From assembly GCF_018780105.1 (NCBI RefSeq), contig NZ_JADMKC010000005.1:204482-268481 (forward strand): a stretch of 64,000 nucleotides of DNA, in the 5' to 3' direction. How positions within the stretch are numbered: the stretch's first letter is position 1; each line of letters begins with the position of its first letter. The notes beneath the pieces were generated by a model. The model searched no databases and had not been told where the DNA came from. It saw only the letters and a program-made list of their open reading frames with translations. The stretch is from Thiobacillus sp. Its GTDB lineage: Bacteria > Pseudomonadota > Gammaproteobacteria > Burkholderiales > Thiobacillaceae. Both the position numbers and the translations under genes were made by a program. Shown here one piece after another: positions 6,315-45,347 of the stretch.

Positions 6315-9300
6315 TTGTCGTCACGCATGCGGAATGCGTCGCATAACGACCGGGACACCGAGTTGTTGCGTTCCGAACTGTTTAGCATCGAGCAGCTGAA
6401 GCGTCACGCGGTCATGCTGGCGGACCAGCATCGAATCGATCCACGGCCGGGGCCGGACCGCTTGCTGCCACGTCTGGCAGACAATGCGCGGGTTCTGCTG
6501 GCGGCCTACGACGTCGTGACTGCCGCCGCGACGCCGGGACAACGGATCGTACCGGCCGAGGCCTGGCTGCTCGACAACTTTTACCTGATCGAGCAGCAGA
6601 TCACGCTGGCGCGTCGCCACCTGCCGCGTGGATACAGCCGGCAGCTGCCGCGACTGGCTGAGGGCCTGTCGGCTGGTTTCCCTCGCATATACGATCTGGC
6701 GCTGGAGCTGATCTCCCACATGGACGGCCGCGTCGACAGCGACAACGCCACCCAGTTCATCGCCGCTTACCAGACCGTCGAACCCTTGAAGCTGGGCGAG
6801 TTGTGGGCTTTCCCGATCATGCTGCAGCTGGCCTTGCTGGAAAACCTGCGCCGCGTTGGCCTGCGTATCGCACGCCGGCGCGAGGAGCGCGATGCGGCCA
6901 TCACCTGGGCCGACCGCATGCTGGTGACGGCCGAACAGGAACCGAAACAGCTGATCCAGCTGCTGGCCGAGTTTGCCAATGCCGATGTGCCGCTGACCGC
7001 GCCGTTCGTGGAAGAGTTCTACGCCAGGCTTCAGGCGCAGGGTCCCGCCATGGCCTTCGTCCAGACCTGGGTCGAGCACAAACTGTTCGAACAAGGCGTG
7101 ACCGCAACCGCTTTGTCGGAGGCGGCCGGACGCACCGCCGCAACCAACCAGATTTCCATCGCCAACAGCATAGGCAGCTTGCGCTTCATCGGCACCATGG
7201 ACTGGCGGGAATACGTCGAGTCACTCAGTGTGGTCGAGCAATGCTTGCGCGAAGACCCGGTGGGCATGCACGCCAGCCAGGACTTCGCCACGCGCGACCG
7301 TTACCGTCACGTCATTGAAGACGTGGCGCGCGGCGGTTCGTGCAGCGAGCAGAAGGTGGCACGCGCAGCCATCGAGCTGGCACAGGCGGCTGCGGCGCAA
7401 TGGGGAACCGAGAATCGTCGCGCGCATGTCGGCTACTACCTGATCGATCAGGGACGGCAGAGCCTGGAGCGTGCCGTGGGTTGTCGTTTGTCATGGAGAA
7501 CGCGGGTCAGCCGGGCGAGCCGGCATGTCCGCCTGCCCCTGTATCTCGGCCCCATCTTTTTGATTACCGCGCTGGTGACCGCGGGCATCCTGTCTGTTGT
7601 CGGTGGATTCGGGGAGGGTGGCTGGCGGGACGGCTTGCTGCTGCTTGCTCTCGTCATCGGCGCCTCGGCGCTGGCGGTTTCGCTGGTGAACCTGCTGGTC
7701 ACGCTGATCCTGTCGCCGCGCGCCTTGCCCCGCATGGATTTCTCCAAGGGGATTCCCGACTGCCATCGCACCATGGTGATCGTCCCCACCCTGCTGGGCA
7801 GTCCGCAGGAGATCGATCATCTGCTCGAGGCGCTGGAGATCCGCTATCTCGGCAATCGCGACCCCAATCTGTACTTTGCGCTGCTGACGGATTTTCGCGA
7901 CGCGCCCGAACAAACGCTGCCGGACGACGCGGCCTTGCTCGCTTACGCACGCACGGCGGTCGAGACGCTCAACGCGACGTATCGTGACGACCGTCCGGGC
8001 ATCTTCTATCTATTCCACCGGCCGCGGGTGTGGAATCCGGTCGAGCGGGTGTGGATGGGCTACGAGCGCAAGCGCGGCAAGCTGGAGCAGTTCAATGCCC
8101 GGCTCCGGGGCGGGGCGAACACTGCTTTCTCCGACATCGTCGGCGATCAGTCCATCCTGGGGTCGATCCAGTACGTCATCACCCTGGATACCGATACGCA
8201 GCTGCCGCGCGACGCGGCGCGCACCCTGATCGGCAACCTGGCGCATCCGCTCAACCGGCCGGTCTACGACGCCGGCAAGGAACGCGTCGTCGAAGGCTAT
8301 GCGATCCTGCAGCCGCGCGCCTCGATCAGTCTGACCAGTGCAGGCCAGTCGCGCTTCACCAAACTGTTCGCCGGCGACTCGGGGCTGGATCCCTATACGC
8401 GCGAGGTGTCGGATGTCTATCAGGACGTGTTCGGCGAAGGCTCGTTCATCGGCAAGGGCATCTACGATGTGGACGCGTTTCGCCAGGCCGTCGACGGACG
8501 TTTTCCGGAGCATCTCATCCTCAGTCACGACCTGCTGGAAAGCGGCTATGCGCGATCGGCGCTGGTGACCGATGTCGACCTCATCGAAGAGCATCCGGCC
8601 AGTTATGCCATCGAGGCGAGCCGGCGCCACCGCTGGATACGCGGCGACTGGCAACTGGCTGGCTGGCTGCTGCCGCGTGTGCCAGGCCCCACCGGCCCGA
8701 ATGGCGCGAAAACGAAGCGGCAGGCGAACCCGCTCTCGGCGCTGTCGCGGTGGAAACTGTTCGACAACCTGCGGCGCAGTCTGGTCGCGCCGTCACTGCT
8801 TGCCCTGCTGGCAGGGGGGTGGCTGCTGGACGTGGGGCCGGTGTGGCTGTGGACTCTGCTGGTCGTGGCGGTGCTGGGCTTGCCCTCCGTACTCTCCATT
8901 GCGGTCCAGCTCATCCGCAAGCCGGAAGAGCGCGATTGGCTGGTGCACCTGAAACTGACCGGCCACTCCGCGGGGCACCCGATGCTGCTCGCCTTGCTGG
9001 CCTTGGTCCTGCTGCCTTACGACGCACTGATTTGTCTGGATGCAATTTTGCGCTCGGGGGTGCGGATGCTGTTCACCCGCCGTGGTTTGTTGCTGTGGCA
9101 ACTGCGCGCTTATGCAATCCGCAACACGCGCCGCACGCTGGCCGATTTTGTCGTGGAGATGTGGATCGGACCTGTCCTGGCGGTGGCGCTGGGCATGCTG
9201 CTGGCCACGACCCGTCCGCCAATGGAATGGATTTTCTCTGCGCCCATTCTGTTGCTGTGGCTGGTGTCGCCGATTGTCGGTTGGTGGATCAGCCGGCCGC

Positions 9301-12300
9301 TGGCCTCGCCTGCACCGGATTTGAGCGTCGAGCAGCGGGCGTTTCTGCGGACGTCGGCCCGACGAACCTGGCGCTACTTCGCCGACTTTGTCGGCCCGCA
9401 GGACAACTGGCTGCCGCCCGACAACTTCCAGGAATATCCGGCGCCGGCCATCGCCTCGCGCACCTCGCCCACCAATATGGGCATGTCGCTGCTGGCAGAC
9501 CTGGCTGCGTACGATTTCGGTTATCTCACGGCCGGAGAATCCCTGCAGCGTATCGGCAACACGCTGGCTTCAATGGAACAGCTGGAACGCTACCGCGGCC
9601 ACTTCTACAACTGGTACGACACCCGCACACTGCAGCCGCTGCACCCGCAATACGTTTCGTCGGTGGACAGCGGCAACCTGGCCGGCTGTTTGCTCACCCT
9701 GCAGGCGGGGCTGACCGAACTGAAAAATCAGCCGGTGCTGTCGACCAACGCATTCCAGGGGCTGCAGGACACCTTGCAGGTTCTGGCCGGGCACATACCC
9801 GCGTCGCCCACGCCGGAACTGGCGCAGAAGATCGGATTTCTGCAGGACACATTGCGTGCGTTCACACAGGACGGACAGCCCCGGACACTGGTTGCCGCCG
9901 AAAGCGTGCTGGATGAGATCCACCGTATGGGCGGGGGGCTGGTGGCATGGTTGCCCACCGATATCGATATCGATGGCGAACTGTATTACTGGGCGCAGGC
10001 ATTCGACCAGCAATCCCGTGCCCTGCGCGATGAACTGGGATACCTGGTGCCCGAGCCGCAGCCTTACAGCACCATCCCGACCTTGGTGGAATTAAGTGAA
10101 GCGGGCGCAGCAGGCAAGCGCGCAGGGGAGCGGCTCGCCCTCATCGATGGCCTGATGGGCCGTTGCCGCGCACTGGCAGCGATGGATTTCGAGTTTCTCT
10201 ACGACAGCGCATGCGGCTTGCTGACCATCGGCTACGACGTCGGCGAACGGCGCCGCGATCCGTCCTGTTACGACCTGTTGGCATCGGAAGCGCGTCTGGC
10301 CAGTTTCCTGCTGATCGCGCAGGGGCAGGTGCCGCAGAAGCACTGGTTCGCTCTCGGCCGGCTGCTGACCAGTCACGGCGGCGAAGTCAGCCTGATCTCG
10401 TGGAGCGGCTCGATGTTCGAGTACCTGATGCCGCAACTGATCATGCCGAGCTACCCGAACACCCTGTTGGAGCAGACCTGCAAGGCCGCGGTGTCGCGGC
10501 AGATCGAATATGGCCGGCAACGTGCGGTGCCGTGGGGGATTTCCGAGTCCTGTTACAACGCCACCGACATGCATCAGGTCTACCAATACCGGGCGTTCGG
10601 CGTGCCGGGCCTCGGCTTCAAGCGCGGCCTGGGCGACGATCTGGTCATCGCGCCTTACGCCAGCGCACTGGCGCTGACGGTGATGCCTAGCGAAGCCAGC
10701 CGCAACCTGCGCACGCTGGCCGACCAGGGCTTTCTCGGTGCCTATGGGTTCTACGAGGCGGTCGACTACACGCCCTCGCGGGTGCCGCGTGGCAAGCCGC
10801 ATGCCATCGTGCGCGCGTTCATGGCGCATCACCAGGGCATGAGTCTGCTGGCCTTTGCGCATGTCCTGCTTGATCAGCCGATGCAGCGCCGCTTCATGTC
10901 CGACCCCCTCGCGCGGGCGACGGAATTGTTGCTGCAGGAGCGGGTGCCGAAGCAGGGTGCGACCCTGCATCCGCATGCGGCCGAAGTCAGCGCAGCCGCG
11001 CGCCCACCCGCCGCGGAAGCCGGCGCGATCATGCGCGTGTTTACCGACCCGAACACGCCGCTCCCCGAAGTGCACCTGCTGTCAAACGGCCGTTATCACG
11101 TCATGGCAACGCATGCCGGCGGCAGCACCAGCCGCTGGCGCGACCTGGCCATCACCCGCTGGCGCGAAGATGCCACCTCCGATGGCTGGGGCACCTTCAT
11201 CTATCTGCGCGACCGCGACAGCGGACGCTACTGGTCGACCGCGCATCAGCCGACGCTGCGTCGTGCCGATCACTACGAAGCCATCTTCGTGCAGGCGCGT
11301 GCCGAATACCGGCGGCGCGACCAGGCGATCGAAACGCACACCGAGATTACCGTTTCACCTGAAGACGACGTCGAGATCCGTCGCGTCACGCTCACCAACC
11401 AGTCGTCCCGCATCCGCCGCATCGAGGTGACGAGTTACGCTGAAGTGGTGCTGGCGCCGCTGAATGCCGACCTGGCGCATCGCAGCTTCAGCAACCTGTT
11501 CGTGCAGACCGAAATCCTGCCCGAGCGGCAGGCGATTCTTTGCACGCGGCGCCCGCGTACCCCGGGGGAGCAGGTGCCGTGGATGTTTCACCTGTTGGCC
11601 GCACCGGGCGCAGTCGCCGACGATCCGTCCTACGAAACCGACCGCGCCCGTTTCATCGGGCGCGGCCGCACTACGGCCAACCCGGTGGTGCTGGAATACG
11701 GCGACAGCGCGCCCGCCCTGTCCAACACGGCGGGTTCGGTGCTCGATCCCATCGTGGCGATCCGCCGCACCGTTACCTTGTCCCCGGACGAATCGGCGAG
11801 CGTGCAGATCATTTCCGGGATTGCGGACACGCGCGAGGCCGCATTGGCCCTGCTGGAGAAATATTGCGACCGCCACTTCGTCGAGCGCGCATTCGAAATG
11901 GCGTGGTTCCAGAGCCAGGAAGTACTGCGCCACCTCAACGCCAGCGAAGCCGATGCGCAGATTTTTGGTCGCCTGGCCAGTTCCGTCATTTACTGCAATG
12001 CCCTGCGCCGCGCTTCGCCCGGCATCATTGCCCGCAACCAGCTGGGTCAGTCCGGGCTGTGGCGCTTCGGCATCTCGGGCGATCTGCCGATCGTGCTGCT
12101 GCACATCGGCGACCTCAACCGCATCGATCTGGTCAAGCAGGTGCTGCAGGCGCATGCCTATTGGCGCATGAAGGGGCTGACCGCTGATCTGGTGATCGTG
12201 AACGAGGATTTCTCGGGCTACCGGGCGGTGCTGCAGGATCTGATCATGGGGCTGATCAACGCGGGGCCCGAAGCGCAGGTGATCGATAAACCGGGCGGCA

Positions 12301-14975
12301 TCTTTGTGCGCCGTGCCGAAGAGCTGTCCGAGGACGAACGGGTGCTGCTGCGGACAGTCGCCCGCATCGTCTTCAACGATACCGCCGAGACGCTGATCGA
12401 ACAGGTGGAACGCCGTGTCTCGGCAGAGCGTACCTCGGACCGCCTGGAGCCCTTGCAGCAAGCGAGCATCGAGCCGGTTTACCCGCTGGCGGCGCGCGAG
12501 CGCATTTTCAGCAACGGCTTGGGCGGCTTCACGCCCGACGGCAATGAATACGTCATCACCCTCGAACCGGGCCAGAACACGCCGGCGCCGTGGGTCAACG
12601 TAATCGCCAGCCCGCACATTGGAACGGTCGTCAGCGAGCGCGGCAGCGCCTATACCTGGGCGGAAAACGCGCACGAGTTCCGCCTGACCACGTGGCACAA
12701 CGATCCACTCTCCGACAGCAGCGGCGAGGCGTTCTATATCCGCGACGAAGACACCGGGGCGTTCTGGTCGCCGACCCCGCAGCCCGCCTGCGGCCGCTCC
12801 GGCTATGTCTGTCGCCATGGTTTCGGTTACAGCGTGTTCGAGCATTACGAAGCCGGGATTGCCTCGGAGCTTTCCACCTACGTCGCGATGGACGCGCCGG
12901 TGAAGTTCGTGGTGATCAAGCTGCGCAACTCCTCGACGCAGACACGCAACCTGTCGTTGACCGGATATTGGGAACTGGTGCTCGGCGAGTGGCGGCATGC
13001 CAATCTGATGCACATCGTCACCGAAACCGATTCGCACACTGGGGCGCTGTTTGCCCACAATGCCTACAACCGCGAATGCGCCAATCGGGTGGTTTTTGCC
13101 CAGGTCAGCGAGCGCGAGCGGTCGATGAGCGGCAGCCGTAGCGAGTTCATCGGCCGCAACGGTTCGCTCGCCAATCCGGCAGCGATGCGTCGCAAACGTC
13201 TGTCGGGCCGAACCGGTGCGGCGCTCGATCCGTGCGCCGCGATCCAGAGCCGGATTGAATTGGCCGCCGGGCAAACGCGCGAGGTCGTGTTTGTTTTCGG
13301 CGCCGCGCGCGACGCTGGCGAGGCGCGCCATTTCATCCAGCGCTTTGGTGGACGGGCCGGCGCGCGGCAGGCACTGGAAACCGTGTGGGAATACTGGAAA
13401 CACACCCTGGGCGCGCTGCATGTGGAAACGCCCGACCCCGCGCTGGACGTGCTGGCCAACGGCTGGCTGGTCTATCAGACCCTGTCCTGCAGGCTGTGGG
13501 GGCGCAGTGGTTATTACCAGTCCGGCGGGGCCTACGGATTCCGCGATCAATTGCAGGACACCATGGCGTTGATCCATGCGACACCGTGGCTGGCCCGCGA
13601 GCAGTTGATCCGCTGCGCCGAACGCCAGTTTAGCCAGGGCGACGTGCAACACTGGTGGCATCCGCCCAACGGACAGGGCGTACGCACCCATTTCTCCGAC
13701 GACTATCTGTGGCTGCCGTATGCCGCTTGTCGCTATGTGCGGGCGACCGGCGATACAGGCGTACTCGACGAGCCGGTTCATTTTCTGGAGGGCCGCGCGT
13801 TGAATCCGGAAGAGGAGGCTTACTACGATCAACCCCAGCGCTCGCCGGAAGTCGCCAGCCTGTATGAGCATTGTGTGCGCGCCATCAAGCATGGCTTGCG
13901 TTTTGGCGCGCATCAATTGCCGCTGATGGGCTGCGGCGACTGGAACGACGGCATGAATCTGGTCGGCAAGGATGGTAAGGGCGAGAGCGTGTGGCTGGCG
14001 TGGTTCCTGTACGAAAACCTCGAGCTGTTTGCAGGTCTGGCGAGTGACCGCAACGACCAGGACTTTGCCGGCGTATGCAGGGAGCAAGCGGTCCTGTTGC
14101 GCAGCAATATCGAGGCGCATGCCTGGGACGGCGCCTGGTATCGGCGCGCCTGGTTCGACGATGGCACCCCGCTGGGTTCCTCCGCCAACGACGAATGCCA
14201 GATCGATTCGATCAGTCAGAGCTGGGCGGTCATATCGGGCGGCGGCGATCCGGTACGCGCCCGCCAGGCAATGACGGCAGTCGACCAGCGCCTGGTGCGA
14301 CGCGACAAGCAGATCATCCAGTTGCTCGACCCGCCCTTCGACAAATCAGCGCTGGAGCCCGGCTACATCAAGGGCTACATCCCCGGCGTGCGCGAGAACG
14401 GCGGCCAATACACCCATGCCGCGATCTGGACCACGATGGCGTTTGCCATGATGGGCGATACCGAACGCGCGTGGGAATTCTTCGCCATGCTCAATCCCGT
14501 CCATCACGGCAGCACGCCCGAAGCCATCGCACGCTACAAGGTTGAGCCCTACGTCATGTGCGCGGACATCTATGGCGTGTCGCCGCATACCGGTCGGGGC
14601 GGCTGGACCTGGTACACCGGGGCGGCGGGCTGGATGTACCGGCTGACCGTGGAAACCCTGCTGGGACTGCAACTGGGAGTCGACCATCTGCGCATTGCGC
14701 CGTGCATCCCGGCCCATTGGGCGTCCTACAAAATCCATTACCGCTATCGCGAGACCGTCTACCACATCACCATCAAGCGGGTCGGTGAGCAAACGGGTCG
14801 GGTGATCCGTGTAACGGTGGATGGCACCGGGATAACCGGAAACGGGATAAACGGAGCTGTGGCAAATGGAGTTGACGCAGGCGGGCCGGCAGGATATGCA
14901 TCAGCGCGGCCGCATGGCCTGATCCCCCTGGTGGACGACCGCCAGGAGCACTATGTCGAGGTGGAATTGAGCTGA
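6315..14975 (+). CDS. ndvB: Cyclic beta-1,2-glucan synthase (NdvB/ChvB/Cgs type)
   Basis: A 2886-residue protein, close to Brucella Cgs and Agrobacterium ChvB in length. Order of parts: an N-terminal region, a membrane block (about 405-465), a GT84 glycosyltransferase with DTDT near residue 625 and [11 protein letters not shown] near 770, more membrane segments (about 835-1000), a glucoamylase-like middle, two sugar-binding sandwich regions, and a C-terminal GH94 phosphorylase with [10 protein letters not shown] near 2540. In known enzymes it makes, sizes and closes periplasmic cyclic glucans from UDP-glucose at the inner membrane. The start is uncertain: TTG 6315 follows AAAGAG, while the stronger AAGGAG lies at 6282. 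The gene stands alone. A Gly/Asn-rich stretch near the C-terminus is low complexity. Confidence 0.93.
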
Positions 14976-39959: not shown

Positions 39960-40760
39960 ATGGCTGAGGAGTCTGATCTTTCCCGTACCGAACCGGCAAG
40001 TTCGCAGCGTCTGCAGCAGGCGCGGCAGGCGGGCGATGTTCCGCGCTCGGCCGAACTGGCGGCGTGGGTGGTGTTGCTGGCCGCGCTGGGTTTGCTGGGT
40101 TGGCTGGCCCCCCGTTTGCTGCTTGCCTTGCAGTTCATGATCGAGACAGCACTTATCACTGCCGCACAGCCTTCTTCCCCCGCCTTGTTTGCCGCCGTCC
40201 AGTCCGCACTGTGGGCGCTATTGCCGCTGCTGGGTTTGGTTCTGGCAGTCGCCGTGGCCGCGCCGCTACTGCTTTCGGGCTGGGTATTCGCACCCCGGCG
40301 CATGCAGTTCGATCTGCTGCGTGCCAATCCGCTTCAAGCCTTTTCCCGTTTGTTTTCTGCCGATGCCTGGTTCGATGGATCGCTGGCGCTGCTGAAGCTT
40401 GCGCTGGCTGCTGCGGCTGTCGCCTGGATGCTGGCGAGCGGGGCGGGGCTGGCTGATTTGACCGGGACTTCGTCTGGTCTGGCGCAAGCGGCCGCCTGGC
40501 TGGAGCGTGGCTTGCTTGCCTTGGCTGCGGCGCTGGCGCTGGCTGCGGCTTTGGATGCCGCCTGGCGTTGGTGGCGTTATCTGCGTCGCCACGCGATGAC
40601 CTGGCAGGAGGTGTTGGCCGAGGCGCGCGAGGCCGAGGTCAATCCGGAAATCCGTGCCCAGATGCGGGGGCGCCAGCAACAGGCCGGGCAGGGCGAACTG
40701 GCCAGCGGGGCGGAAGCCAAACCTGTTTTGTCCGGTTCGATCAATGAGGTGATCGGGTGA
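39960..40760 (+). CDS. flhB: Flagellar export protein FlhB, lacking the autocleavage domain
   Basis: 266 residues against about 380 normally. The start MAEESDLSRTEPASSQRL, the four-helix membrane part (about 35-215) and RHAMTWQEVLAEAREAEVNP, which enters the cytoplasmic linker, are clearly FlhB. The protein then ends in a short Gln/Gly-rich tail; the whole C-terminal domain with the self-cleaving NPTH site is missing. The stop is fused with the start of flhA (GTGA), and no other frame nearby holds the missing part. FlhB is part of the flagellar type III export gate; the lost domain normally controls the rod/hook-to-filament switch. Confidence 0.88.
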   Translation: MAEESDLSRTEPASSQRLQQARQAGDVPRSAELAAWVVLLAALGLLGWLAPRLLLALQFMIETALITAAQPSSPALFAAVQSALWALLPLLGLVLAVAVAAPLLLSGWVFAPRRMQFDLLRANPLQAFSRLFSADAWFDGSLALLKLALAAAAVAWMLASGAGLADLTGTSSGLAQAAAWLERGLLALAAALALAAALDAAWRWWRYLRRHAMTWQEVLAEAREAEVNPEIRAQMRGRQQQAGQGELASGAEAKPVLSGSINEVIG

Positions 40761-42832
40761 GCGCGCAGGGTGTCATGGTGATGGGCATGCCGGTGAACCG
40801 TTTGGCGGTGCCACTGCTGGTGCTGCTGATCCTGGCCATGATGGTGCTGCCGCTGCCCACCCTGATGCTCGATGTGCTGCTGACGCTCAACATCGCGCTG
40901 GCCATGATCGTGTTGCTGGTCAGCCTGAATGCGCGGCGCCCGCTCGATTTTTCGGTATTTCCGACGGTATTGCTGCTGACCACTTTGTTGCGCCTGTCGC
41001 TCAATGTGGCCTCCACCCGCATCATCCTGATGCAGGGCCAAACCGGGCCGGACGCGGCAGGCAAAGTGATCGAGTCCTTCGGCAGCTTTCTGGTCGGCGG
41101 CAACATTGCGGTCGGCTTCGTGGTGTTCCTGATTCTGGTGATCATCAATTTCGTCGTCATCACCAAAGGGGCCGGCCGCATCGCCGAGGTGGCGGCGCGC
41201 TTCACCCTCGATTCGATGCCCGGCAAACAATTGGCGGTCGACGCCGATCTGAACGCCGGCTTCATCAATGAAGTCGAGGCGCGCACGCGGCGTCACGACA
41301 TCGGCCGAGAAGCCGATTTTTACGGCGCCATGGACGGCGCATCCAAGTTCGTTCGCGGCGACGCCGTTGCCGGCATGATCATCCTGGTGGTGAACCTGAT
41401 CGGCGGCATTGCCATCGGCCTGCTGCAGCACAATCTCGGCATCGGCGAAGCGGTGGGCCGCTATGCCTTGCTGACGGTGGGCGACGGGCTGGTGACGCAG
41501 ATCCCTGCGCTGATCATCTCGACCGCCGCGGGTATCGTGGTCAGTCGGGCATCGAGCGAACAGGATTTGTCGCGCGAGTTTTCCACCCAGGTTTTCGGCC
41601 AGCCGCACATCCTGTATGTGGCGGCAGCGGTGCTGGCCATTCTGGGCGCCATCCCTGGCACGCCGCATCTGGCTTTCCTGACCATCGCGGCAGTGTTGAG
41701 TGCGCTGGGACTGTGGCTGGCGCGGCGCCAGCGCGAACAACCCGAAGCCGAACTGCCGGGCTTGATCGAGGACTCGGCCGCCCCGGTCGATGTCACCTGG
41801 GACGATATCCCACCGGTGGATGTGCTGGCGCTCGAGGTCGGCTACCGGCTGATTTCGCTGGTAGACCGCAATCAAGGCGGCGAGGCGCTGACCCGGATCA
41901 CCGATGCGCGGCGTCGATTTGCAACGGACATGGGGCTGGTCGTGCCGCTCATCCGGGTGCGCGACAACCTCGATCTCAAGCAGAACGCCTACCGCATTAC
42001 CCTCAAGGGTGTGGATGTGGCGCACGGTGAGATGCCCAGCGGCCAGGTGCTGGCGGTCGACATGGGCGACGTGCTGGGACGTATCGAGGGCGCGCCGGGC
42101 GTCGATCCGCTGAGCGGCCTGGGCGGCGTCTGGATCGAGGCAGGGCGCGAAGAGGAAGCCACCTTGCGCGGATTCGTGGTGTTCACTGCAGCCGAGTTGA
42201 TCGCCCGCCAGGTCGAGCAGGTGTTCCGCCAGCACGCGCCCGAACTGCTGGGGCGCGTCGAGGTGCAGCAGCTTCTCAATACCCTGATGCGCAGCCATCC
42301 GGGGCTGGTCGAGGATGTCACCCCACGCCATTTGCCGCTCACCAGCGTGCAGGTCGTGCTGCAGCAGCTGATCGCGGAAAACGTCTCGATCCGTGATAGC
42401 CGGACCCTGTTTGAAACCCTGGCGGCGCGTGCGCCGAACAGCCAGTCGATCGAGGATCTGGTGGAAACCGTGCGTGCTGCGCTGGGGCGCAGCATCGTCG
42501 ATCGTCTGTTCGAAGGCAGCAACGAACTGCATGTGATCGGGCTGGCTGCCGCCACCGAGACGCGTTTGCTGAATGAAATGGGCGACGAGGGCGAGGCGCT
42601 GCTGTCGCCGACCACGCTGGATGCGCTGAACGAGGCGGCGGAGCGCGCCGTGGCGGAACAGGAGCATGCGGGTTACCCGCCGGTGCTGCTGACTTCGCCC
42701 AGTCTGCGCGCCATCCTGTCGCGGTTGTTGCGGCGCAACTATCCGCAGCTGGCCGTGGTGGCGTATGCCGAAGTGCCCGCCGATAAAACGGTGCAGGTGA
42801 ATAGCGAACTTGCCATTGGAGGACACGCATGA
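40757..42832 (+). CDS. flhA: Flagellar export gate protein FlhA
   Basis: 691 residues from GTG 40757. N-terminal membrane region with about eight helices, including LPLPTLMLDVLLTLNIALA, FPTVLLLTTLLRLSLNVAST and the FHIPEP-region stretch DADLNAGFINEVEA; then a cytoplasmic domain from about 330. All landmarks are intact. It forms the nonameric ring that binds export chaperones. It overlaps flhB upstream and flhF downstream by 4 nt. Confidence 0.97.
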   Translation: MSAQGVMVMGMPVNRLAVPLLVLLILAMMVLPLPTLMLDVLLTLNIALAMIVLLVSLNARRPLDFSVFPTVLLLTTLLRLSLNVASTRIILMQGQTGPDAAGKVIESFGSFLVGGNIAVGFVVFLILVIINFVVITKGAGRIAEVAARFTLDSMPGKQLAVDADLNAGFINEVEARTRRHDIGREADFYGAMDGASKFVRGDAVAGMIILVVNLIGGIAIGLLQHNLGIGEAVGRYALLTVGDGLVTQIPALIISTAAGIVVSRASSEQDLSREFSTQVFGQPHILYVAAAVLAILGAIPGTPHLAFLTIAAVLSALGLWLARRQREQPEAELPGLIEDSAAPVDVTWDDIPPVDVLALEVGYRLISLVDRNQGGEALTRITDARRRFATDMGLVVPLIRVRDNLDLKQNAYRITLKGVDVAHGEMPSGQVLAVDMGDVLGRIEGAPGVDPLSGLGGVWIEAGREEEATLRGFVVFTAAELIARQVEQVFRQHAPELLGRVEVQQLLNTLMRSHPGLVEDVTPRHLPLTSVQVVLQQLIAENVSIRDSRTLFETLAARAPNSQSIEDLVETVRAALGRSIVDRLFEGSNELHVIGLAAATETRLLNEMGDEGEALLSPTTLDALNEAAERAVAEQEHAGYPPVLLTSPSLRAILSRLLRRNYPQLAVVAYAEVPADKTVQVNSELAIGGHA

Positions 42833-43959
42833 GTGCGCAGGTTTTTATCGCGGCAAGCGCGCGTGAGGCGCTGGAAAAAGTTCGGCGCGAACTGGGCGAC
42901 GATGCCGTGGTGCTGTCGACGCGGCCACATCCGCAGGGCGTCGAACTGCTGGCCAGCGGCTATGGAAAATTGGCGGCCACGGCAGCCGCAGAAGCAGGCG
43001 ATGCGCCGGACAGCGCCAGCGGCTCGCGCATCCTGAGCGAACTGGCGCGGCTGCGCGGCATGCTGCAAAACCAGCTGGCGGGTTTCGCCTGGGGGGCCGA
43101 ACGGCGGCGCGATCCGCAGCGGGTCGCGTTGATGCAGACCCTGTTCGCGGCCGGATTCGGCAGTGCGCTGGCACGCACCCTGGCTGCACGCTTGCCGCGC
43201 GGACTCGATACGCCGGCAGCGCAACGCTGGCTGCGGCAGGTGCTGATCCGCAACCTGCCGCTGCTGCCGGGCGCGGCCGGCTGGCTGGCCCAAGGCGGCC
43301 GCTATGCGCTGGCGGGCTCGACCGGTTCGGGCAAGACCACGACCCTGGCCAAACTCGCCGCGCGCGGGGTGGATGCGCATGGCGCAGAGCAGGTGGCCCT
43401 GGTGGCGGCAGATGCTTTCCGCGTCGGCGCAGCGGCGCAACTCACGGTGTATGCCGATCTGCTTGGTGTGTCGCTGTACGTGGCCGAGCATCCCGCCCAT
43501 CTGGTGCAATTGCTGCCGCAGCTTGCGGGCAAAAAACTGGTGCTGATCGACACCGCGGGCTTTGCCCCGTCGGATCCGCGTACCCGCGATGCGCACGCGC
43601 TCGACGCTTTGGGCGTGCGTCGTCTCGCGGTGATCTCCGCCAGCCAGCAGGGTGCGGCGATCGAACAGGCGATGGCCCGATTCGGACAAGGCGCGGCGGC
43701 CTGCATCCTGACCAAGCTCGACGAAGCGCCGCAGCCGGGCGCCGCGCTCGACAGCCTGATCCGCCATCGCCTGCCGCTGGCTTACCTCAGCGGCGGCCAG
43801 CGCGTGCCGGAAGACCTGCATCTTGCCAATGCGCCCTATCTGATCGACCGTGCGCTGAAAGGTGGCCAGCTGGCCACGCCGTTTGCGCTGGAGGCCGAAG
43901 ACTGGCCGCTGTTCGCGGGCGTCGAGGCCGAGCGTGCCGAACGTCATGCAGCGGGTTAA
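42829..43959 (+). CDS. flhF: Flagellar placement GTPase FlhF
   Basis: 376 residues. The SRP-type GTPase domain has GSTGSGKTTTLAKLA (163-177), AADAFRVGAAAQL, IDTAGFAPSDPR and ILTKLDEAPQPG. The N-terminal B domain is short (about 1-100). FlhF sets the site and number of polar flagella together with FlhG, whose ATPase normally stimulates nothing by itself but recruits FlhF activity. Here the following gene is FlhG-like but lacks a P-loop. Confidence 0.94.
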   Translation: MSAQVFIAASAREALEKVRRELGDDAVVLSTRPHPQGVELLASGYGKLAATAAAEAGDAPDSASGSRILSELARLRGMLQNQLAGFAWGAERRRDPQRVALMQTLFAAGFGSALARTLAARLPRGLDTPAAQRWLRQVLIRNLPLLPGAAGWLAQGGRYALAGSTGSGKTTTLAKLAARGVDAHGAEQVALVAADAFRVGAAAQLTVYADLLGVSLYVAEHPAHLVQLLPQLAGKKLVLIDTAGFAPSDPRTRDAHALDALGVRRLAVISASQQGAAIEQAMARFGQGAAACILTKLDEAPQPGAALDSLIRHRLPLAYLSGGQRVPEDLHLANAPYLIDRALKGGQLATPFALEAEDWPLFAGVEAERAERHAAG

Positions 43960-44644
43960 CCCGTCCGATCAGGCAGCCGGTCTGCGGCGACGCAGCGCTC
44001 GCCTGCCGCCAGCCTGTACGTACTGTTTTTTTGACAGCGCCGAATGGCTCGCCAAACTGGCGAATACGCTGCAGCAGGGCGGCCAAAGCGCGCTGCTGAT
44101 CGACCGCCGGGGACGCTTGTTTGCCGGCGCGCCCACGCGCAGCCTGTTCGACTGGGAGCAGCAGCTTGCGCGGGGTGAACTGCACACGCAGCCGTTGAGC
44201 GCCGGAGAGGGCTGGTATGCGCCCGGGCTGCGGGCGGACGTGCCCGCCTTGCGCGAAGTGGCGCGGGCTTACGATCATCTGCTGTTCGACGAGGAATCGA
44301 GCGGTGCGGAACTGATACTGATGCCTGGAGCGACACAGCGTTTCCTGATCGAGGTCCAGGATGCGCAGCCTTCTCTGCTGCGTGCCTACACCTTGCTCAA
44401 AACCCTGTCCCATGCAGTCAGCGGAGGGCAGGTGGGCTTGCTGGGCGACCCGGCTGCCTGTGCGCAACTGCATGCGGCCGCGCGCCACTTTCTTCCGCAG
44501 CCATTTGCCCGGACAATCCACTGCGCGGCTGACGGCGATACTGCTTTTTCAGCGCTTGCCGTTAGAATGCTTGGCGAGGAGACGCGTCACCTGACACGTT
44601 TTGAAATAGAAAATCACGAAAGCATGGCCTTGAAAAATGGCTGA
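43946..44644 (+). CDS. FlhG/MinD-fold-like protein without a P-loop (degenerate FlhG)
   Basis: 232 residues from ATG 43946, overlapping flhF by 14 nt and fliA by 8 nt, exactly where flhG (fleN) stands in related operons. The Walker A is absent: where KGGVGKT would be, the text is CFFDSAEWLAKLANTLQQ. The rest keeps the order of a MinD-type fold: QGGQSALLIDRRG, a FlhG-like LFDWEQQLARGELH, AYDHLLFDE (for YDxVLID), ELILMPGATQRFLIEVQDA, LLRAYTLLKTLSHA and QVGLLGDP. I infer an FlhG descendant that no longer binds ATP. It could instead be an unrelated protein in this slot. Confidence 0.6.
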   Translation: MQRVNPSDQAAGLRRRSARLPPACTYCFFDSAEWLAKLANTLQQGGQSALLIDRRGRLFAGAPTRSLFDWEQQLARGELHTQPLSAGEGWYAPGLRADVPALREVARAYDHLLFDEESSGAELILMPGATQRFLIEVQDAQPSLLRAYTLLKTLSHAVSGGQVGLLGDPAACAQLHAAARHFLPQPFARTIHCAADGDTAFSALAVRMLGEETRHLTRFEIENHESMALKNG

Positions 44645-45347
44645 CAAACCCCTGTCGCAAGACGAACAAATCGCCAAATACGCCCCGCTGGTCAAGCGGA
44701 TCGCCTATCACATGATGGCGCGCCTGCCGGCCAGCGTGGAAGTCGACGACCTGATCCAGGTCGGCCTGATCGGCCTGATGGATGCCGTCGGGCGTTTCGA
44801 CGGCACCCAGGGCGCGCAATTCGAATCCTATGCAACCCAGCGCATTCGCGGCTCCATGCTCGACGAGCTGCGCGAAGCCGACTGGCTGCCGCGTCATGTG
44901 CGGCAGAAATCGCGGCAGATCGAAGCCACGATCAGCAAGCTTGAACAGCGCAACGGCAAACCGCCCACCGAGCACGAAATTTCTGCCGAGATGGGGATGG
45001 AGATCGACCAGTATCAAGCCATGCTGGGCGATGTGAAATGTTCGCAGCTGTTGTATTACGAAGACTTCGCCGATGACGACAGCGCCAGTTTCCTGGAACG
45101 CTATCTGGTCGATGGCAGCAACGACCCGCTCGCCGTGCTGGAAGACGAGGGCTTTCGCGGCAGCCTGGTTGCCGCGATTCACCATCTGCCCGAGCGGGAA
45201 CGCAGCATGATGGGCATGTACTACGAGCAGGATATGAACCTGAAGGAAATCGGCGTGGTGCTTGGCGTGTCCGAATCGCGCGTGTGCCAGTTGCATTCGC
45301 AGGCAGTGGCACGGCTGCGCGCCCAGCTCAAGATCTGGAAAAGCTGA
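44637..45347 (+). CDS. fliA: RNA polymerase sigma factor FliA (sigma-28)
   Basis: 236 residues: region 2 (YAPLVKRIAYHMMARLPASV, VGLIGLMDAVGRFD, FESYATQRIRGSMLDELRE), region 3, and region 4 (LPERERSMMGMYY, LKEIGVVLGVSESRVCQLHSQ). It directs transcription of late flagellar and chemotaxis genes. It is the last gene of the flhB operon. A FliA-type promoter is seen in this window upstream of 55337. Confidence 0.97.
   Translation: MADKPLSQDEQIAKYAPLVKRIAYHMMARLPASVEVDDLIQVGLIGLMDAVGRFDGTQGAQFESYATQRIRGSMLDELREADWLPRHVRQKSRQIEATISKLEQRNGKPPTEHEISAEMGMEIDQYQAMLGDVKCSQLLYYEDFADDDSASFLERYLVDGSNDPLAVLEDEGFRGSLVAAIHHLPERERSMMGMYYEQDMNLKEIGVVLGVSESRVCQLHSQAVARLRAQLKIWKS

Follow-up and report, generated by a model that had tools for sequence, protein, structure and literature searches.

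The locus studied here raises the question of what a flagellar export apparatus can do with an FlhB protein that ends before its C-terminal (autocleavage/switch) domain, which changes export over from one class of components to another and whose role is known mainly from mutants. The gene lies in the window, by which we mean the whole 64,000-nucleotide stretch of DNA that was analysed, in a Thiobacillus genome of 3.3 Mb (62 contigs, 100% complete). Comparison with relatives suggests an answer: Thiobacillus-type bacteria carry a stripped-down flagellar export machine, beside or instead of a normal flagellum, that apparently has no rod or hook to build and is accompanied by a sigma and an anti-sigma factor of its own.

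The short FlhB protein and its end

The gene flhB' (window positions 39960..40760, + strand) was recognised from its open reading frame, Pfam and alignments as an FlhB gene without the part for the C-terminal domain. Residues 8-247 of its 266-aa product matched positions 2-244 of the 335 positions of the PF01312 profile, with no match beyond position 244. The PF01312 score of 162.5 bits (cut-off 24.4) places the product, with its membrane domain and linker, in the FlhB/SctU superfamily; its score for the FlhB equivalog TIGR00328 was 130.1 bits, far under the cut-off of 349.25, which leaves it outside that narrower family. Neither an NPTH site nor a C-terminal domain was found in the 266-aa protein by sequence or Pfam, and the missing autocleavage domain noticed in the preliminary description was thereby borne out.

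In an alignment with the solved 383-residue FlhB chain 36hu, residues 1-248 correspond to its residues 1-257 and are followed by a short variable tail; the protein ends after the cytoplasmic linker helix. The AlphaFold model was of low confidence (pLDDT 66.5, pTM 0.33), and a fold search with it returned no match at E up to 0.001. Its last predicted long helix spans residues 173-211, which would put the stop about 55 residues past this helix rather than about 20 residues into the cytoplasmic region, as originally estimated. The TGA stop codon (40758-40760) overlaps the GTG start codon of flhA (40757-40759). At the very end of the gene (40746..40760, + strand), the codons for a DEVIG-type tail overlap both this start and the Shine-Dalgarno-like GAGGTGAT at 40746-40753, which is likely to serve flhA. 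Tails of Thiobacillus FlhB' proteins end in DEVIG or close variants, probably because their last codons overlap GAGGTGAT.

Conservation and distribution of the short form

A profile of the short form retrieved 53 loci, of which 51 ended short at the same place, all with a stop in an NTGA overlap and none with NPTH. The two exceptions were a locus cut by a contig end (L109) and an ordinary FlhB of 379 aa with NPTH (L121). Another 20 aligned loci all ended at the same place as FlhB', but they were picked from short matches and overlap the 53, and both sets were found through the short form itself. Since all 51 complete short loci end alike with the NTGA overlap, a sequencing error or recent frameshift was rejected. 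The alignment of related genomes thus supports the earlier view that the stop within the GTGA overlap with flhA marks a fixed gene form.

By record label, 30 of the 53 loci belong to Thiobacillus and five to its family or order; the remaining labels are vague or differ (e.g. Rhizobium, Gemmobacter, Sulfuriferula) and are probably bin labels. Strains with the short form include T. thioparus DSM 505 (L077) and T. denitrificans RG (L073). Across 117 genomes of the family, short matches occurred in at least 47 of the 56 genomes of the own genus, at least eight of nine in genus g12 and at least one of three in genus g4. Frames shorter than 300 aa were found in this family only, among the matches listed for 399 genomes of the order, which leaves room for a weak-scoring short FlhB in another family.

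Phylogenetically, the 23 short-form tips formed one clade with a support of 1.0, separate from all main-type and other-family tips. The 31 main-type tips of the Thiobacillaceae were grouped with a support of 0.61, and the 15 tips of other families formed no clade. This midpoint-rooted FastTree phylogeny of 70 tips was built from the N-terminal parts of FlhB and FlhA; a few genomes are present twice, and long-branch effects are possible.

Two systems in one genome

Matches to PF01312 occurred at three places in the own genome: a complete FlhB, the short FlhB' and a C-terminal-only protein of 97 aa. The genome also encodes two FlhA and two FliP proteins, but its six Flg_bb_rod proteins make up a single set, located entirely on contig C37. 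The complete flhB lies about 27 kb downstream of flhB', preceded by two motor-type genes and followed by flhA, flhF, flhG and fliA; FlhB and FlhA were named by family, and the other genes of this neighbourhood by eye from their sequences. Together with contig C37, this set belongs to the main flagellum. The FliE, SPOA (FliM/FliN) and rod/hook matches of the genome likewise form one set in the main cluster, including both SPOA matches, and the 97-aa FlhB-C-like protein, which has no NPTH, adjoins a fliK-like gene there.

Hence, contrary to what had first been supposed, the short protein is not the FlhB of the flagellum, since a complete FlhB with its own FlhA, FlhF, FlhG and FliA is encoded about 27 kb away. 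The preliminary description had also considered a complete second FlhB combined with a short copy that varies among relatives; the complete protein does exist, but the short copy is conserved.

Gene content of the second system

Downstream of flhB', the window operon continues with four genes on the + strand. The first, flhA2 (40757..42832), encodes a full-length FlhA of flagellar rather than injectisome type, with 805.4 bits for TIGR01398 (cut-off 772.1) and 591.5 bits for TIGR01399 (SctV; cut-off 692.25). It is followed by flhF2 (42829..43959), encoding an SRP-type GTPase FlhF (TIGR03499, 207.1 bits, cut-off 174.15), by flhG2 (43946..44644) and by fliA2 (44637..45347), encoding a second sigma28 factor (NF005413, 299.1 bits, cut-off 201). 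Elsewhere in the window, a 2886-aa open frame whose coding score is strong spans positions 6315-14975.

Three positions of FlhA2 are equivalent to D456, F459 and T490, which we take to be the late-chaperone dimple, and the latter two are altered. The D456-equivalent was kept in 26 of the 27 sequences compared (some genomes present twice), the F459-equivalent was T, S or M in all 27, and the T490-equivalent was R in all 27. The main FlhA of the same genome has F and T at the latter two positions. With these dimple residues altered, docking of FlgN/FliS/FliT-type clients may fail.

FlhG2 has an FlhG/MinD-like fold as judged from sequence and a predicted model (pLDDT 83.3), whose best Foldseek matches were FlhG and FleN (E 2.5e-6). 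In the window and five relatives its N-terminal DQAAGLRR is kept and the P-loop is absent, and two g12 relatives have HQAQGL in place of DQAAGLRR; a further list of FlhG2 relatives had been prefiltered for absence of GKT, which makes it unsuitable for counting P-loop losses. Contrary to what was initially thought, an operon whose FlhG has no P-loop cannot be called wholly intact, and FlhF2 may have a non-ATPase partner.

The remaining export genes form a second operon, which shares its contig with the window operon at a distance of about 160 kb and has the order fliF-fliG-fliH-fliI-fliJ-X-fliO-fliP-fliQ-fliR (C29:77056-84988). FliF, FliG, FliH, FliI (the ATPase), FliJ and FliO were named by Pfam, FliP by family, and FliQ and FliR by aligning them with their main counterparts. 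All of FliF, G, H, I, J, O, P, Q and R on the part list of a flagellar type III secretion system (T3SS) are therefore present in the second system. Gene order was identical in all 20 loci of relatives, which had been fetched around type-2 FliP matches. Between fliJ2 and fliO2, X encodes a family of about 151-159 aa (own copy 156 aa, G000:C29:82131-82598, L046; also L123-L142); it was detected by tblastn in 12 of the 20 loci and as an ORF of 156-159 aa at the same position in the other eight. No relatives of X were detectable by Pfam, PDB-sequence or hhalign searches, and X as a FliM/FliN-like protein was not supported by any usable match in them.

Several of these proteins differ from their flagellar counterparts. 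In FliF, a region of extended beta structure makes a cylindrical collar on the S-ring, as described in excerpts of PMC8092281. The alignment of FliF2 with the solved 560-residue FliF (6scn) ran as far as residue 281 and resumed, weakly, at residue 370, with 14 residues where 6scn has about 90. This collar stretch of about 90 residues was missing in all nine FliF2 proteins shown and present in the main FliF of the same genome; with the exact boundaries of the beta-collar region as we assume them, FliF2 is, on its sequence, without a beta-collar. Compared with the main FliG, FliG2 is missing the GG stretch at the centre and a number of charged positions, presumably the hinge and torque residues. 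The main FliP has MTSF at the position of the motif that is changed by FliE binding according to excerpts of PMC12403130, and FliP2 has FTAF, LSAF, VSAF or FSAF there.

Some relatives showed peculiarities of their own. In two loci of genus g4 (L128, L129), fliF2 and fliG2 are apparently fused into a single gene, with frames of 723 and 721 aa. Three g12 genomes carry extra genes between fliQ2 and fliR2 (L123:3299-5707, L126:2300-4703, L127:3634-6002), which by eye encode a sulfide-dehydrogenase-like flavoprotein, a small cytochrome-like protein and a coiled-coil protein. In G110, a g12 genome without rod genes, fliP2 contains one in-frame TAG (G110:C116:4183-4929).

We calculated dN/dS ratios between pairs of relatives. 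Values were 0.08-0.28 for flhB' (five pairs), compared with 0.13-0.17 for the main flhB (three pairs), 0.02-0.13 for flhA2 (five pairs) and 0.04-0.13 for fliI2 (three pairs). Purifying selection was evident in flhB', flhA, flhF, fliA, fliF, fliG, fliI, X, fliP and fliR, the genes covered by this analysis. For the flhG2 ORF, taken with a wrong start (orf260), two of three values exceeded 1 and are unreliable.

Persistence without rod genes

Ten of the 117 family genomes had the short form as their single PF01312 match (E up to 0.001) and no Flg_bb_rod match (G055, G074, G080, G090, G099, G108, G109, G110, G111 and G114), although for G108, G109, G110, G111 and G114 the absence of rod proteins was deduced by elimination among the matches listed. 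Six of the ten are at least 90% complete, and G114 has 8% contamination. Searches for FliE and for SPOA domains (FliM/FliN) covered twelve rodless genomes, namely these ten, G066 (a single PF01312 match, outside those displayed) and G089 (two short copies), and found neither in any of the twelve.

These ten relatives imply that the system is maintained where there is neither a flagellum nor a separate FlhB-C protein. It had been suggested that the organism might switch export in another way; where only the second system remains, there is no Flg_bb_rod, FliE or SPOA match, and the suggestion changes into one of having nothing to switch. In genera without the second system, most genomes had two PF01312 matches among those listed, which we read as a complete FlhB plus the small protein.

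FlgM2 and sigma28-like promoters

A search of the 117 genomes with PF04316 (FlgM) found two proteins above the cut-off in the own genome and in most genomes with both systems, among the matches listed. Within the same limits, exactly one FlgM was present in 11 of the 12 rodless genomes and none in G108, which is 81% complete. The 49 genomes of g2, g3 and g5-g11, genera without type-2 FliP among the matches listed, had one FlgM in 41 cases, none in eight and two in no case, again among the matches listed.

We fetched flgM2 from 18 genomes, nine of them rodless, taking the copy outside the flagellar cluster where two were present. The gene is located far from the other genes of the second system. 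FlgM2 and its nearest small genes were present in all 18 stretches, and the FlgM2 proteins could be aligned over their length. By a strict pattern, 11 of the 18 regions have a sigma28-like box upstream of flgM2, at -70 to -87, against 0.0036 expected per region; the 18 loci are related sequences and not 18 independent events. With a graded score, whose weights were fitted after the flgM2 boxes had been seen, all 18 boxes reached at least 18.4, a score attained by 32 of 5400 windows drawn at random from these stretches.

The graded scan covered one contig from each of two genomes, and the flgM2 box was the top site on both. On the own 374-kb contig it scored 22.4, with the next site at 18.3 and the reversed control reaching 20.8; the corresponding values for the 239-kb contig of the rodless genome G055 were 23.8, 16.8 and 19.8. 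At cut-offs of 15 and 17, below the top, the reversed control outnumbered the real matches, with 142 versus 23 and 42 versus 6 on the own contig and 48 versus 5 and 13 versus 1 on the G055 contig; we therefore used only the top flgM2 sites and claim no further target. The graded scan placed no sigma28 box at the reporting cut-off before flhB' or fliF2. Over eight genomes (seven rodless genomes and our own), the strict pattern gave two matches, versus seven for a control pattern, and no match in six of the seven rodless genomes. In the rodless G114, a near-consensus box lies 136 bases before a gene resembling those of secreted PhnD-type binding proteins (L167, G114:C67:14548), a possible FliA2 target but a single case, with matches overall no more frequent than by chance.

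A proposed function

We propose, with a probability of about 60%, that the second system is a natural, checkpoint-free, late-mode exporter coupled to its sigma28/FlgM pair. A close precedent comes from Salmonella. Excerpts of PMC13344023 report that a stop at flhB codon 258 or a deletion of residues 270-383 locks the flagellar T3SS in late mode. With FlhB truncated, an FlgM-Bla fusion reached the periplasm of a flk-null strain without rod-hook genes or FliK, and export of the early substrate FlgE-Bla was blocked (PMC13344023, excerpts).

By analogy, a gate with FlhB' would refuse early (rod/hook) substrates and stay in late mode. FlhA2 and FliHIJ would then feed late-type cargo through FliPQR directly into the periplasm. 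The best cargo candidate is FlgM2, since the FlgM of Salmonella is exported as a late substrate; export of FlgM2 would free FliA2 to transcribe the FliA2 genes, probably including flgM2. The C-terminal domain may have been lost in this lineage because there was no early-to-late transition left to control. Going further, one might tentatively picture an export machine reduced to a regulator, with a late-mode gate and an anti-sigma factor as the main cargo, in which opening or energising the gate, and not a finished structure, starts a non-flagellar sigma28 regulon; we consider this picture conceivable, with the odds against it.

Some observations speak against the late-mode exporter. The truncation in Salmonella needs a special background: it worked well only with Fluke lost and FlhDC activity raised, in a strain that retained fliE (PMC13344023, excerpts). 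Furthermore, the FlhA2 dimple is altered, strict sigma28 matches are few, the reversed control prevails at lower graded scores, and flgM2 lies apart from the operons of the system, with no box at the reporting cut-off before flhB' or fliF2. FlgM2 could also act in the cytoplasm only.

Alternative explanations

The altered dimple also leads to an alternative that we regard as unlikely: a late-locked type III exporter with other cargo, such as effectors or surface proteins, for which FlgM2 and FliA2 would regulate from inside the cell only. The FlhA2 cytoplasmic domain is full, FliH, FliI and FliJ are present, and the dimple shows a fixed remodelling, as though it served new clients; moreover, excerpts of PMC7277350 report that the flagellar T3SS of non-flagellated Lysobacter exports heterologous flagellin and that several of its genes are needed for twitching. 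However, no conserved candidate cargo gene lies beside the operons, among the minority of flanking genes identified, and it is FlgM2, from the sole late-substrate family searched, that tracks the second system. A role without export is a rather remote prospect. The MS-ring, gate and FlhF would then be a polar scaffold or another membrane structure related to the flagellar T3SS core (hat-like or nanotube-linked), and excerpts of PMC9380563 describe a hat-shaped inner-membrane structure that is linked to flagellar T3SS proteins and looked unchanged in Campylobacter without the FlhB C-terminal domain. That hat also persisted without FliF (PMC9380563, excerpts), whereas FliF, FliG, FliH, FliI and FliJ are all kept here, and the strong constraint on fliI (0.04-0.13 in three pairs) fits an ATPase-aided exporter.

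Decay of a second flagellum, with the FlhB truncation as one step in the loss of function, would account for the many missing flagellar parts and for the in-frame TAG in fliP2 of G110. Purifying selection in the ten genes covered, the persistence of the operons in three genera and in genomes without rod genes, and the identical FlhB' end in all 51 complete short loci make it very improbable. We give practically no credence to the idea, raised in the preliminary description, that the missing domain is supplied in trans. Both possible donors, the 97-aa protein and the complete FlhB, exist in the own genome, but the former sits beside fliK in the main cluster without NPTH, genera without the second system mostly have two PF01312 matches among those listed as well, and in the ten rodless relatives the PF01312 search at E up to 0.001 finds nothing besides the short FlhB.

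Comparison with known systems

In this system the lineage has lost the FlhB C-terminal domain for good, and with it rod, FliE, FliM/FliN and MS-ring collar, but has kept the gate, the ATPase and sigma28/FlgM. If the late-mode exporter is the right reading, the second system would distinguish parts required for export from those that serve construction. It would also allow a recent claim to be tested in nature, namely that the FlhB C-terminal domain is an inhibitor that holds the gate in early mode. Finally, it would be a present-day intermediate of the kind assumed between flagellum and secretion system. We found no literature on this Thiobacillus system among the top-ranked open-access papers, and excerpts of papers on Lysobacter (PMC7277350, PMC9927559), Chlamydia (PMC2830194) and Myxococcales (PMC9380563) mention no fixed loss of the FlhB C-terminus.

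The Chlamydia proteins resemble the second system in that FliI, FlhA and FliF are kept; in contrast, excerpts of PMC2830194 describe no full export-gate set there and contacts with injectisome proteins. The secretin-less NF-T3SS of Myxococcales is similar in that its secretion is believed to cross just the inner membrane, but it belongs to a non-flagellar lineage (PMC9380563, excerpts), whereas the second system has a flagellar-scoring FlhA and FliG. Non-flagellated Lysobacter likewise carry flagellar export genes without flagella: according to excerpts of PMC7277350 and PMC9927559, the genes for FliM, FliE, FlgB and flagellin were lost and the retained flagellar T3SS genes are functional. Unlike here, these excerpts report that FliG was lost and FlgD is said to be exported, and mention no FlhB truncation; the Thiobacillus system retains FliG, its FlhB is truncated and its FliF has no collar, and many species have it side by side with a true flagellum. 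The Salmonella FlhB delta-CCD and stop-258 mutants share with it the same FlhB end (257-258), the absence of rod and hook, and the sigma28/FlgM pair, with FlgM as the cargo that was followed (PMC13344023, excerpts). By the same excerpts, however, those mutants were engineered or selected in a flagellated species, without Fluke and with fliE kept, whereas the Thiobacillus protein is a natural, fixed form that belongs to a separate system.
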